Positions 5,967-64,000 of a stretch of 64,000 nucleotides of DNA are shown here, piece by piece (within the stretch, counting starts at the first letter, position 1; every line of letters begins with the position of its first letter). The translations under genes were made by a program, and so were the position numbers. The notes beneath the pieces were generated by a model. The model was not told the DNA's origin and did no database searches. It saw only the letters and a program-made list of their open reading frames with translations. This DNA is from Gammaproteobacteria bacterium (GTDB lineage: Bacteria > Pseudomonadota > Gammaproteobacteria > Steroidobacterales > Steroidobacteraceae). The stretch covers positions 18,100 through 82,099 of the forward strand of contig JAABQQ010000227.1 in assembly GCA_011391405.1 (NCBI GenBank). The letters are read 5' to 3'.

Positions 5967-6035
5967 GACCGGGATTTGGTTCATTCCCCTGCGCGCCAGG
6001 AAACATGCGCGCGGGAAATGAACCAAATCCCGGTC
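5967..6035. repeat. Long intergenic palindrome downstream of phaC
   Basis: Arms at 5967-5996 and 6007-6035 are complementary over about 29 bp with one mismatch and one extra base; the 10-nt centre is CAGGAAACAT. The arms contain GGGATTTGGTTCATT and its complement. It lies between convergent phaC and the broken SYLF gene, a position where it could act as a bidirectional terminator, although no T-run follows. Size and form resemble REP-type palindromes mobilised by REP-associated tyrosine transposases. The remaining sequence from 6036 to 6226 shows nothing recognisable. Confidence 0.75.
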
Positions 6036-10869: not shown

Positions 10870-10932
10870 TCCGGCGCTTGTCCCCGAGCGCGTGTCTGCC
10901 TTTCCAAGCTCGGGGACAAGCGCCGGATCAAG
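10865..10932. repeat. Palindrome A: perfect 25-bp arms, conserved GTGTCTGCCTTTCC core
   Basis: Arms at 10865-10889 and 10908-10932 are perfectly complementary over 25 bp. The central 18 nt contain GTGTCTGCCTTTCC, the same 14-nt core found in the palindrome at 58902-58975, whose arms are unrelated. The left arm overlaps the AraC stop codon. It may also work as a terminator between the AraC gene and the convergent ABC exporter operon. Confidence 0.85.
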
Positions 10933-30282: not shown

Positions 30283-31314
30283 ATGAGTTCCCTCGACAGC
30301 TGGCACGAAGAAAAGCAGTCCGCGTGGCTCTATCGCGCGCTGGCTTTGTGTGAGCCCGACGCGAAGATCGCAGAGCTGTTCCGCGCACTCGCCGCCGCAG
30401 CCGACTTCCAGGCCGACAAGTGGCTCGCCAGCGCAGCGCAGTCTGCGCCACCCGCATTTGCGCCGTCCGCGCGCGCACGCATCACCGCGGGGCTCGCGCG
30501 CGCGTTCGGCCCGCGGCGGGTGCGTCACATGCTCGCCGCGATGAAAGTGCGCGGCCTCTCGGTCTACGATTCGCAGCGCTCGCTCGCGGGTCACCTGATG
30601 CCCACCTCCGTGTCGGAGGTGGGCGCGCGGCACAAAGGCTACGGCGGCGGCAACCTCCGCGCCGCGGTGTTCGGCGTCAACGACGGTCTCGTCTCCAACA
30701 CCAGCCTGATCATGGGCGTTGCGGGAGCGGCGGTGGGCGCCGACTTCGTACTGACCAGCGGCGTGGCGGGATTGCTCGCAGGCGCTCTCTCCATGGCCGC
30801 GGGCGAATACGTGTCGATGCGTTCGCAGCGCGAGATGTTCGAGTACCAGATCGGGCTCGAGCGCGACGAACTGCAGGAATACCCGGAAGAAGAAGCCGAG
30901 GAACTCGCCTTGATCTACCAGGCGCGCGGCATGCAGCTCGAGGAGGCGCGCCGCGTGACCCGCGAGCTGGTGAAGAACGAGGCAAACGCGCTCGACGCGC
31001 TCGCGCGTGAAGAGCTGGGCCTCAATCCGGACGATCTCGGCTCACCGTGGGGCGCCGCGATCTACTCTTTCCTCGCCTTCTCGCTCGGCGCGATCATTCC
31101 GCTGGTGCCGTTCCTGTTCGGATTGCCGCTGCAGCGGTCGGTCATGATCGCCGCGATCACCGCGGGCATTGCGTTGTTCGGGGTCGGCGCCGCGTTGAGC
31201 CTGTTCACGGGCCGCAGCGCGCTCGCGGGCGGGCTGCGCATGGTGCTGATCGGCGGCGGCGCGGGCAGCGCGACGTGGCTCATTGGCTCGCTGCTGGGAG
31301 CAGCGATCCACTAG
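30283..31314 (+). CDS. VIT1/CCC1-family iron/manganese transporter with N-terminal helical domain
   Basis: 343 residues. Residues 1-100 are a helical region beginning SSLDSWHEEKQSAWLYRALA, reminiscent of the ferritin-like domains fused to VIT transporters, though few metal ligands are obvious. The VIT part has the classical NDGLVSNTSLIMGV helix, AAGEYVSMRSQREM, and the cytosolic metal-binding segment rich in Glu (EYPEEEAEELALIY), then three C-terminal helices. It probably moves Fe(II) or Mn(II) out of the cytoplasm. ATG lies 19 bp after the receiver gene, so it may share the fixLJ transcript. The stop abuts a 59-bp palindrome arm. Confidence 0.88.
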   Translation: MSSLDSWHEEKQSAWLYRALALCEPDAKIAELFRALAAAADFQADKWLASAAQSAPPAFAPSARARITAGLARAFGPRRVRHMLAAMKVRGLSVYDSQRSLAGHLMPTSVSEVGARHKGYGGGNLRAAVFGVNDGLVSNTSLIMGVAGAAVGADFVLTSGVAGLLAGALSMAAGEYVSMRSQREMFEYQIGLERDELQEYPEEEAEELALIYQARGMQLEEARRVTRELVKNEANALDALAREELGLNPDDLGSPWGAAIYSFLAFSLGAIIPLVPFLFGLPLQRSVMIAAITAGIALFGVGAALSLFTGRSALAGGLRMVLIGGGAGSATWLIGSLLGAAIH

Positions 31315-31316
31315 GG

Positions 31317-31460
31317 GATAGGGGAAATTGGGGACGCTCACCTATTACTGAAATTGGGGACGCTCACCTATTACTGACAGTGGGGTGAGTTATGGGTGAG
31401 GAGTAATAGGTGAGCGTCCCCAATTTCAGTAATAGGTGAGCGTCCCCAATTTCCCCTATC
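31317..31460. repeat. 144-bp perfect palindrome: 59-bp arms, each a tandem 26-nt unit
   Basis: Arms at 31317-31375 and 31402-31460 are perfectly complementary over 59 bp around a 26-nt centre. Each arm holds two adjacent copies of a 26-nt unit starting AAATTGGGGACGCTCACCTA (left: 31325-31350 and from 31351), with GATAGGGG at the outer edge. It fills the gap between the convergent VIT and cbpM genes, and the right edge overlaps the cbpM stop. It could form a very stable hairpin and terminate both genes. The motif style resembles palindromes linked to REP-associated tyrosine transposases. Confidence 0.92.
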
Positions 31461-31776
31461 ACCTGCTGCGCAGCTGCGACAGCAGCCGGCGACGTTCTTC
31501 AACGAGATCGAGAATGATCGCGGCGCCGGTAAGATTCACGCCGAGATCCGTCACGAGCCGCGTCAGCGCCAGCACGCGCGGCAGCTGCCGCCGCGGAAAC
31601 GCCCAGCCCGAGGGTTCGAGTCCACCGCGCGGATCAAGCGCACCGATTTCCACCATGTCGACGATCCACTGCTGCTCGACGCAAAGTCGGCTGCAGATTT
31701 CCTCGATTTGCAGGCAGTCGTCATCGTCGAAGAATTGCGCACGCAGCACATCGTCATCGTCATTGCGGCTGCTCAT
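31459..31776 (-). CDS. cbpM: Chaperone-modulator protein CbpM
   Basis: 105 residues. CbpM is a MerR-like helical protein that binds and inhibits the J-domain of CbpA. FFDDDDCLQIEEICSRLCVEQQWIVDMVEIGALDP matches the family in style, and the C-terminus carries the leucine-rich LTRLVTDLGVNLTGAAIILDL. It overlaps the cbpA stop by 4 bp on the same strand, the usual cbpA-cbpM arrangement, implying coupled synthesis of co-chaperone and inhibitor. Confidence 0.88.
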   Translation of the reverse strand: MSSRNDDDDVLRAQFFDDDDCLQIEEICSRLCVEQQWIVDMVEIGALDPRGGLEPSGWAFPRRQLPRVLALTRLVTDLGVNLTGAAIILDLVEERRRLLSQLRSR

Positions 31777-57639: not shown

Positions 57640-57823
57640 CGAATCTGTCACAGCACCGAACTAAGTGGAGGCGCAGGATCCCTGCGTCGGGCCAGCCGCT
57701 CCCCCAGGGTGAGCCCGACACAGGCCGAGAGGCAGCATCAGCCGATATCAGGCAGCAGGGACGGATGCATTAAGTCCTCGACGCCGACCGTACACCGGAG
57801 CAGGAATCCCCCTCCTGCTCCGG
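57640..57823 (+). ncRNA. Candidate structured RNA or 3' untranslated region ending in a strong terminator
   Basis: No convincing ORF occupies the 57574-58136 gap. From about 57668 the plus strand can form consecutive hairpins: CGCAGG/CCTGCG (57672-57686), then TCGGGC paired with GCCCGA enclosing GCTCCCCCAGGGTGAGC, and further short stems before the terminator at 57795. This could be a small RNA, a riboregulator or the long 3' UTR of the dehydrogenase operon. It did not match the 4.5S, 6S, tmRNA or RNase P RNA features I know. Between 57831 and 58136 nothing clear was seen. Confidence 0.35.
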
Positions 57824-57830
57824 TTTTTTT
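57795..57830 (+). terminator. Rho-independent terminator
   Basis: CCGGAGCAGGA (57795-57805) and TCCTGCTCCGG (57813-57823) form an 11-bp perfect stem with a 7-nt C-rich loop, followed by TTTTTTT (57824-57830). It is the strongest intrinsic terminator in the window. It ends either the polyamine operon with a 220-nt trailer or a separate short transcript. Confidence 0.93.
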
Positions 57831-58136
57831 GCTCGAGCCCCGGATCATGCTGGTCTGCTGCGGGAACTGGGGTAAGAAAAGCAGGCTTTCCCGCACTTCC
57901 GAGTTCAGCCACGAGCCAACCTTCAGCAGCGGTGCCAAGTTAAGGGTCCTGCACCGCCGCTTGTGCGGTACCGCAGACTACGCGAGCATCTCCAGATAAA
58001 GAATTGCACGGACATCGCCGGAAACCAGATGGGCACGGGCCGGTCATATACCGACACTGGGTCTGTGGACCGACATGCATGTCGTTGAATTGAAAGTCAG
58101 GCGTGACAGTCGCGTTCCGTACGTTGCGAGGTAGCG

Positions 58137-58776: not shown

Positions 58777-59076
58777 TTATCGCTGAGACGCGAGTGCGCG
58801 CTCGAGTAGTTGGCAGATGAAGCGCTGGTACGGTACGCCGCTTTCGGCGGCCGCGTCCTTGACGGCCATCAGCAAGTCTTCGGGCAGATGCGGTCGATCA
58901 GGCGTTCGTTCCTGGTCTTCCCCGGGCGAGCGTGTCTGCCTTTCCGCTCGCCCGGGGAAGACCAGGAACGAACGCACTCGCCGACCGTCAGCCCTGGCTC
59001 GTTCTTTCCAGTCGCGTGTCTGCTTGCAGCGTAAGTCACCCTTTGCCCGAAGCACACCCGCACGACCTGGTGACAT
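58777..59076 (-). pseudogene. Ribbon-helix-helix (CopG/BrnA-like) antitoxin remnant broken by a palindrome
   Basis: The 99-codon frame ends with LPEDLLMAVKDAAAESGVPYQRFICQLLERALASQR-like sequence (written here in part: LPEDLLMAVK, GVPYQRFI, QLLERAL), which is the DNA-binding end of a ribbon-helix-helix antitoxin. Upstream, translation passes through both arms of a 74-bp palindrome (58902-58975), giving arginine/glycine-rich non-native sequence, then QTRDWKERARADGRRV of unknown origin. The antitoxin N-terminus is therefore missing or displaced. No toxin gene is adjacent. The next gene upstream on this strand, fructosamine kinase, ends 9 bp away. Confidence 0.6.
58902..58975. repeat. Palindrome B: perfect 30-bp arms, conserved GTGTCTGCCTTTCC core
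   Basis: Arms at 58902-58931 and 58946-58975 are perfectly complementary over 30 bp, with exactly the 14-nt core GTGTCTGCCTTTCC between them. The same core lies in palindrome A at 10892-10905, but the arms there are unrelated apart from GAGC/GCTC next to the core and a nearby CCCC/GGGG. It interrupts a ribbon-helix-helix antitoxin frame. Confidence 0.92.
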
Positions 59077-62827: not shown

Positions 62828-63739
62828 ATGGTTGCCCAGATCAGGACGCCGTCTTTACGGCTGCTGCGAACTTTTTGCGTGGCGGCTCGCCACTCGAGTT
62901 TCAAGGATGCGGCAGACCGCCTGTCGCTGACGCCCTCGGCCGTCAGCCACCAGGTCAGGGAACTCGAAGAACAACTCGGCGTCGCGCTGTTCCAGCGGCG
63001 AACGCGATCCGTCGTGCTGACACCCGTTGGCCGGCAACTGCTGGATGACCTCGAGCCGGCATTGGGTGCCCTGAGCACGGCCATCGAGCGAACGCGCAAC
63101 ACGTCCGGCGCCAGGCGCCAGCTGACGGTCGTGATGCCGCCGTTCTTCGCCAGTGAACTGTTCGCGCCACGCCTGCCCGACTTCCACGTCCACCATCCTG
63201 GCATCGACATCCAGGTCGACACGCGTGACCCGCGCCCCGGCCAGCACTCGGGTTTCTCGGATGTCTCGATCGTCCTGGCGGGTACCCTGCCCGACGACGT
63301 GGATGTCGAGTCCGTGCGTCTGATGCCCTTGCGGCTGGTGGCGGCGGCATCGCCGAAAGTCGCCCGTTCCATGGCCGGCAAGCTGGACGCCCGCTCGTTC
63401 GACGGCCAGACCCTGATCATGCATCGCAACTTCCGCAACGACGTCTGGGATCTGTGGCTCAACCAGGTCGGACTCGATCTGCGCCGGCTCGGCAGCGTGA
63501 TCGAATTCGACAACATGGTTGCCGTCACCCGCGCCGCGGAGCGGGATGGCGGGATCGCGCTGGTGCCCGCGATCGTCTGCCAGCCCTGGTTCGAACGTGG
63601 CGCGCTGGTGCACATCGCGGGCTTCGACCTGCAGGGGGATGAGGCGTATTACCTGGTGGTCCGGCGCGGTGATTTCGAACGCTCGGAAGTCCGCGCGCTG
63701 GTCGAATGGTCGATCGAACAATTCCAGGTTCCCGCCTAA
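62828..63739 (+). CDS. LysR-family transcriptional regulator (GcvA-like)
   Basis: 303 residues from ATG 62828 (MVAQIRTPSLRLLRTF); a GTG at 62771 would add 19 residues unlike the family. The winged HTH spans about 8-65 (VAARHSSFKDAADRLSLTPSAVSHQVRELE), and the ligand domain follows with PFFASELFAPRLPDF and ALVPAIVCQPWFERG. P-S-L-R-x-L-R-T-F and SAVSHQVRxLE are typical of the GcvA group. No divergent target gene is adjacent; the preceding 186 bp contain its promoter and the end of the GNAT gene. Confidence 0.9.
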   Translation: MVAQIRTPSLRLLRTFCVAARHSSFKDAADRLSLTPSAVSHQVRELEEQLGVALFQRRTRSVVLTPVGRQLLDDLEPALGALSTAIERTRNTSGARRQLTVVMPPFFASELFAPRLPDFHVHHPGIDIQVDTRDPRPGQHSGFSDVSIVLAGTLPDDVDVESVRLMPLRLVAAASPKVARSMAGKLDARSFDGQTLIMHRNFRNDVWDLWLNQVGLDLRRLGSVIEFDNMVAVTRAAERDGGIALVPAIVCQPWFERGALVHIAGFDLQGDEAYYLVVRRGDFERSEVRALVEWSIEQFQVPA

Positions 63740-63871
63740 CGGGGACGGCGGACGGTGACGTAAGGCCTGCGTCCATTGAGGGTGAAAAAAGGTCATTCAT
63801 CAGACGATGAAACTTCGTTTGTCGCACCGCAGCATCAGACGTAGTCTCAAACCCGTCCAGCGGCTTCACCA

Positions 63872-63913
63872 ATGTGGCCCTGGGGTGCACTCCCCCTGCT
63901 ACCCCCGCCACAT
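63872..63913. repeat. Palindrome C1 with GCACTCCCCCTGCT core
   Basis: ATGTGGC (63872-63878) and GCCACAT (63907-63913) pair, with a bulge and then GGGG/CCCC, around a 16-nt loop holding GCACTCCCCCTGCT at 63887-63900. The same 14-nt core recurs 60 bp downstream inside a hairpin with different arms. It lies in the non-coding right end of the window (63740-64000). Confidence 0.75.
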
Positions 63914-63924
63914 GAACCCGCCGG

Positions 63925-63983
63925 AACTTGCCGGGTGGCCTGGGACGCACTCCCCCTGCTCCCCCAGGCCATCTCGGCAAGTT
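63925..63983. repeat. Palindrome C2 with GCACTCCCCCTGCT core and 20-bp arms
   Basis: Arms at 63925-63944 and 63963-63983 (AACTTGCCG, then TGGCCTGGG and their complements) are matched apart from 2-3 bases, enclosing an 18-nt loop with GCACTCCCCCTGCT at 63947-63960. With C1 it forms a pair sharing loop but not stem. Nothing else is recognised in 63740-64000 apart from these two repeats. Confidence 0.82.
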
Positions 63984-64000
63984 ATTTCTTCCGCGGACGG

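Follow-up and report, generated by a model that had tools for sequence, protein, structure and literature searches.

Near the end of the window, by which we mean the whole stretch of 64,000 nucleotides that was analyzed, two palindromes with a common core lie side by side, which raises the question of whether they are a mobile DNA repeat or part of an RNA. A preliminary description had reported two hairpins 60 bp apart with a shared 14-nt loop core, and both exact matching and folding confirm such a pair. The 14-mer GCACTCCCCCTGCT has exactly two copies in the window (63887-63900 and 63947-63960; spacing 60 bp), one within hairpin 1 (63872-63913, + strand; stem ATGTGGC..GCCACAT) and one within hairpin 2 (63925-63983, + strand; stem AACTTGCCG..CGGCAAGTT). 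Both hairpins are supported by the fold and by a congener, in which hairpin 2 is 96.6% identical. The core is constant as described, but the actual loop is shorter than 14 nt: GCACTCCCCCTGC, at the tip of both hairpins, folds into a 3-bp helix (GCA/UGC) that closes a 7-nt loop, CUCCCCC (63890-63896 and 63950-63956). Likewise, the stems are variable, as had been noted, but not unrelated, since hairpins 1 and 2 can be aligned over ~37 nt (GTGGCC-TGGG..GCACTCCCCCTGCT.CCCCC..GCCA) with a score of 43, compared to a maximum of 29 in 5,000 shuffles. This makes them look like diverged copies of a tandem duplication.

Folding of the 131-nt stretch comprising both hairpins as RNA yielded −70.7 kcal/mol, compared to a shuffle mean of −44.3 (z −7.8), and none of 200 dinucleotide shuffles reached this energy. 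The stems are thus more complementary than random sequence. The complementary strand of the pair is stable as well, but less exceptional (z −4.4). When the 48 runs of at least five C in the window (both strands) were compared, hairpin 2 ranked first among C-loop hairpins in stability per nucleotide. In both hairpins of both species that carry the pair, the CUCCCCC loop is directly followed by a U. The pair therefore shows the features by which C-rich-loop sRNAs are recognized, i.e., a stable hairpin with four or more C in its exposed loop and the motif UCCCCCU.

The preliminary description further related the pair to two other palindromes of the window, A and B, and suggested looking for genome-wide enrichment of the core and for a REP-associated tyrosine transposase or other linked enzyme. 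The kinship with A and B is not supported, and the core is not enriched. A search of the 3.54-Mb assembly for GCACTCCCCCTGCT with up to one mismatch returned only the two copies at this locus, whereas GTGTCTGCCTTTC, the core of palindromes A and B, is dispersed over the genome in 76 copies, most of them in nearby inverted pairs. The hairpin pair and the GTGTCTGCCTTTC palindromes are therefore different things, and the many dispersed copies typical of REP/BIME elements are lacking for the former. No Y1 transposase (PF01797) was found in the genome of the window (G000, 78% complete) or in that of the pair-bearing congener (G004, 85% complete). An integron attC site was also considered and dropped by eye, as no R and L boxes were present. 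Regarding the GTGTCTGCCTTTC palindromes themselves, copies of the core lie at 10892-10905 and 58932-58945 of the window within long covarying stems. Segments similar to these palindromes are abundant in the congeners G004 and G005 and not so in the other six congeners; G005 carries one Y1 transposase. At another locus (L037, 2003-2071), a palindrome of the same type matches the Rfam model of the plastid psbJ 3'-UTR hairpin with 42.5 bits (cut-off 53.1), probably owing to a shared form: each is a long hairpin, and the loops are similar.

The pair lies 3' of a LysR-family gene and just past a promoter-like block. The gene (62828..63739, + strand) encodes a LysR-type transcriptional regulator of the GcvA-like subfamily, with Pfam domains HTH_1 and LysR_substrate above cut-off; its best NCBIfam model is GcvA (188.8 bits, which is below the curated cut-off of 288). 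The promoter-like block (63819..63847, + strand) is composed of a −35 box TTGTCG (63819-63824), a 17-nt spacer and a weak −10 box TAGTCT (63842-63847), from which we infer a transcription start at ~63854. A simple sigma-70 consensus scan did not call this block. Upstream of it, the dyad TTCATC-AGAC-GATGAA (TTCATCAGACGATGAA; 63796..63811, not assigned to a strand) is a plausible LysR binding site, and the congener G004 has the dyad CTCATC-GATT-GACGAG (CTCATCGATTGACGAG) at the matching place. LysR orthologues were identified in 103 of 217 genomes of the taxonomic family. In most of those examined, the promoter-like block directly follows the LysR stop codon, and family-wide it consists of TTCGTTTGTCG and, at constant spacing, a −10-like box TATCCT/TATCGT. 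No protein gene lies between the block and the hairpins in the window. A terminator scan of 63700-64000 gave no call, and no hairpin followed by a U run was detected there. The contig stops at base 64000, the last base of the window, so that the 3' part of the predicted RNA is missing from this incomplete metagenome-type assembly.

One of the eight other genomes of the genus (g1), that of G004, carries the hairpin pair at the matching site after the same LysR gene. Its sequence is identical to a MAG from Lac Pavin sediment (JAPLSF010000044). Identity between the window and G004 amounts to 95.5% in the hairpin region, compared to 91.5% in the LysR gene (86% at third codon positions) and 75-76% in the adjacent spacers; inspection of the substitutions within the hairpins showed every stem pair to be intact. 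On the 3' side of the pair, G004 has a purine-rich stretch, then an intrinsic terminator (AAAGGCGCCATCGGCGCCTTTTTT) on the same strand, beyond which the next gene, encoding an HNH protein, is convergent. The last ~17 nt of the window already diverge from this sequence. The LysR gene is missing in six of the nine g1 genomes, none of which is matched by the double-hairpin model. In G003, the blocks that flank the locus lie close to each other, with neither the LysR gene nor the predicted RNA. We also observed that the predicted transcript of G004 contains GGGGAG, a G-rich sequence that could pair with the loops; it is not general in relatives.

Searches beyond the genus did not extend the pair as such. 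Two cores 32-62 nt apart were sought in ~85,000 species genomes, revealing one real homologue, the congener G004; the other matches were CRISPR repeats and coding tandem repeats, and a scan of viral contigs returned only repeats in coding sequence. A model of the double hairpin built from two sequences (R1) found nothing convincing outside the two species. Its best other matches (E 0.004-0.006) resemble coding sequence and have broken pairs, and a weak DNA match in another genus (G168) is coding-type sequence without the cores.

The orthologous position in other genera proved more informative. Of 40 loci in genus g19, 36 have strong C-loop hairpins 3' of the LysR gene, 63 in total and all of them on the sense strand (three of the other four loci have little sequence). 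The strand bias is complete: across the 40 loci, no such hairpin was found antisense downstream of LysR, or on either strand upstream of or inside the gene. The 36 loci have between one and three of these hairpins in tandem, each roughly 20-30 bp long and with a C-rich loop of the form [A/U]CCCCCU[C/G]. In other genera, a C-loop hairpin with an unrelated stem is present in 5 of 28 loci (L131, L133, L160, L163 and L167), again only on the sense strand. The loop is constant throughout: among 77 hairpins, those of both g1 species included, the nucleotides after the C run are UC in 68 and UG in five. When 29 g19 hairpins were aligned plainly with MAFFT, changes on both sides were seen in 8 of 13 pairs and 94.4% of cells were paired; none of 500 shuffles matched any of five measures, although such shuffle tests are inflated by related sequences. 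When the register was slid by 1-3 columns, paired cells dropped from 94% to 48-61%. This slid control, together with the pair types (GC, AU, GU and CG at one pair), supports the g19 stems as real. The proposal that a constant loop on variable stems is a general architecture thus holds: it recurs at the orthologous locus across the bacterial family, and the stems covary.

A model built from the g19 hairpin alignment (R2) had matches in 43 genomes, all of them g19 and nearly all with a single cluster of one to three copies. No match was found outside g19 in 396 genomes of the order sampled, nor in the hairpins of the window. Homology of the g1 and g19 hairpins would therefore rest on position, promoter, tandem arrangement and loop, as stem sequence is not shared. 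In two genomes, R2 hairpins lie off the contig of the LysR orthologue (G115:C8 10546-10801 and G135:C33 194938-194997).

The g19 loci differ from the window in gene content. There, a gene usually lies between the promoter block and the hairpins; it encodes a ~180-aa protein whose start resembles a signal peptide and whose similarity to TPR stays below threshold. Pfam assigned the protein from the related loci tested to no family above cut-off, and a DUF1127 partner of the CcsR type was not found. The hairpins are kept without the protein gene in nine g19 loci and both g1 loci; in two more loci, the gene is truncated. The losses in the nine g19 loci map to six positions of the LysR tree (L107; L123; L121; L136/L140/L144; L129/L135; L142), a count that assumes no regain and includes some weakly supported forks. 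Because the hairpins outlive the protein gene, this argues that the RNA itself is under selection. Small predicted secreted proteins of unassigned family with the same LysR-adjacent promoter are also encoded 3' of LysR at L103, L109, L158, L160 and other loci, and they fall into three or more types that look unrelated and occur in different genera.

We consider it likely that the locus encodes a LysR-linked small regulatory RNA on the + strand, free-standing here and borne by 3' UTRs elsewhere, whose C-rich loops pair with G-rich mRNA sites. Judging from conservation and sequence, the promoter just 3' of the LysR gene, probably under LysR control, would start the RNA ~18 nt before hairpin 1. 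Its two long hairpins would display identical CUCCCCC loops, and in the sister species the predicted transcript would run through the purine-rich stretch to the intrinsic terminator, ~250 nt in total. The loops would be the working part; the stems would need only to pair and so drift by compensatory change, and they differ completely between genera while the loop is kept. If sX13 and NfeR1/CcsR are a guide, mRNAs with G-rich stretches close to their ribosome binding sites are the most likely targets, to be repressed by base-pairing with the exposed loops. GGGGAG/GAGGGG was absent upstream of 47 roughly called start codons of the window, a test of low power that yielded no target. In the best-sampled genus, the hairpins would mostly act as 3'-UTR elements after a gene for a small predicted secreted protein, transcribed from the same promoter, whereas in g1 and several other lineages the protein gene is gone and the hairpins stand alone. 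We see about equal reason to accept and to doubt the wider proposal of a LysR-linked RNA family with sequence constraint on the C-rich loop alone, which began in, or shares its promoter with, the mRNA of a secreted protein and repeatedly became free-standing by gene loss.

Other readings have to be weighed against this one. The hairpins could be passive 3'-end structures, i.e., long stem-loops behind LysR or the secreted-protein gene that shield the mRNA against 3' exonucleases or aid termination between convergent genes, with no pairing to targets. Most relatives indeed have them in the 3' UTR of the protein gene, and the next gene in G004 is convergent. However, a C-rich loop need not be conserved for protection or termination, and here it is the loop that has been conserved. 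Furthermore, only 2 of 44 last hairpins in relatives stand directly before a U run, which indicates that they are not simple terminators. The occurrence of one to three tandem copies on a single strand and their persistence once the upstream gene is lost also speak against a passive role, and we regard it as unlikely.

A cis-acting leader or attenuator of a gene farther downstream would fit an element that begins right after a promoter, and some relatives have hairpins near the promoter with no protein gene between. In G004, however, an intrinsic terminator comes next and then a gene on the opposite strand, and in most relatives the hairpins are located 3' of the protein gene rather than 5', which makes such a role very unlikely. 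Least credible of all is a REP/BIME-like DNA repeat of the same kind as palindromes A and B, moved by a REP-associated tyrosine transposase. It would account for paired palindromes with a constant core, but dispersal is already refuted by the two core copies at one locus, and no Y1 transposase was found in the two incomplete pair-bearing genomes. The congener has the pair at the identical position, the hairpins are strand-specific across the family, and R2 hairpins are gathered at one place in nearly all genomes, so that we give this reading next to no weight.

If the regulatory RNA is real, it would represent an independent family of C-rich-loop sRNAs, which are known from scattered unrelated examples in alphaproteobacteria, Xanthomonas, Helicobacter and Staphylococcus, with a candidate regulator next door and natural replicas of host-gene loss. 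As stems appear to be replaced wholesale while loop and position are kept, the family would offer a direct route to ask whether the loop alone carries function. Regarding other features of the window, a C-rich-loop hairpin lies 3' of an aldehyde dehydrogenase gene and is followed ~100 nt on by an intrinsic terminator with the loop AUCCCCC (57680-57831); this element is possibly an ordinary terminator or another C-loop RNA. Two intergenic inverted repeats were also seen, one of GGGGACGCTCACCTATTACTGA units with 76-nt arms that are 91% complementary (31300-31477), and one of 23 nt with a 23-nt spacer (5967-6035).

Comparison with known RNAs places the locus beside three systems. Rfam assigned no family at gathering score to the window, and matches at E up to 10 for the window and the G004 locus were chance miRNA and snoRNA models, with no sX13 among them. 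NfeR1/αr14 of Sinorhizobium and other Rhizobiales has three hairpins with an identical unpaired anti-Shine-Dalgarno motif and strongly different stems, and its transcription is activated by the LysR-type regulator LsrB (PMC10746234; PMC3927594). It thus resembles the predicted RNA of the window in its constant loop motif, divergent stems and LysR-type regulator (a candidate here). In contrast, its loop is CCUCCUCCC, compared to CUCCCCC in the window and [A/U]C5+U[C/G] in relatives, it belongs to another lineage, and only here is the LysR gene directly adjacent. CcsR1-4 ("cuckoo") of Rhodobacter sphaeroides are tandem hairpin RNAs processed from a transcript with a small-protein gene and a 3' terminator (PMC10253847), similar to the tandem hairpins beside a small-protein gene, on a predicted joint transcript, at related loci here. 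The CcsR partner, however, is a DUF1127 RNA-binding protein, compared to an unrelated predicted secreted protein or none here, and CcsR has an RpoH-type promoter and a different loop motif (CCUCCUCCC) from CUCCCCC. A weak CcsR1 match at L109 (28.6 bits; cut-off 65.3) was not repeated in 13 further relatives. The combination that characterizes αr14 and CcsR, i.e., tandem hairpins with a constant loop and divergent stems, is found in the window pair and in the family-wide hairpins. For sX13 of Xanthomonas, excerpts of PMC3771888 describe stable stems and 4C/5C loops that repress via G-rich motifs near translation starts independently of Hfq, with UCCCCCU as the motif of its loop 3 and of Helicobacter pylori HPnc5490. 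Stable stems, C-rich loops and UCCCCCU are shared with the window pair, whereas sX13 has three hairpins, and the same excerpts report no linkage to LysR or a secreted protein. By the tests made, the RNA proposed here lies outside the families of sX13, NfeR1 and CcsR, yet it may well work as they do.
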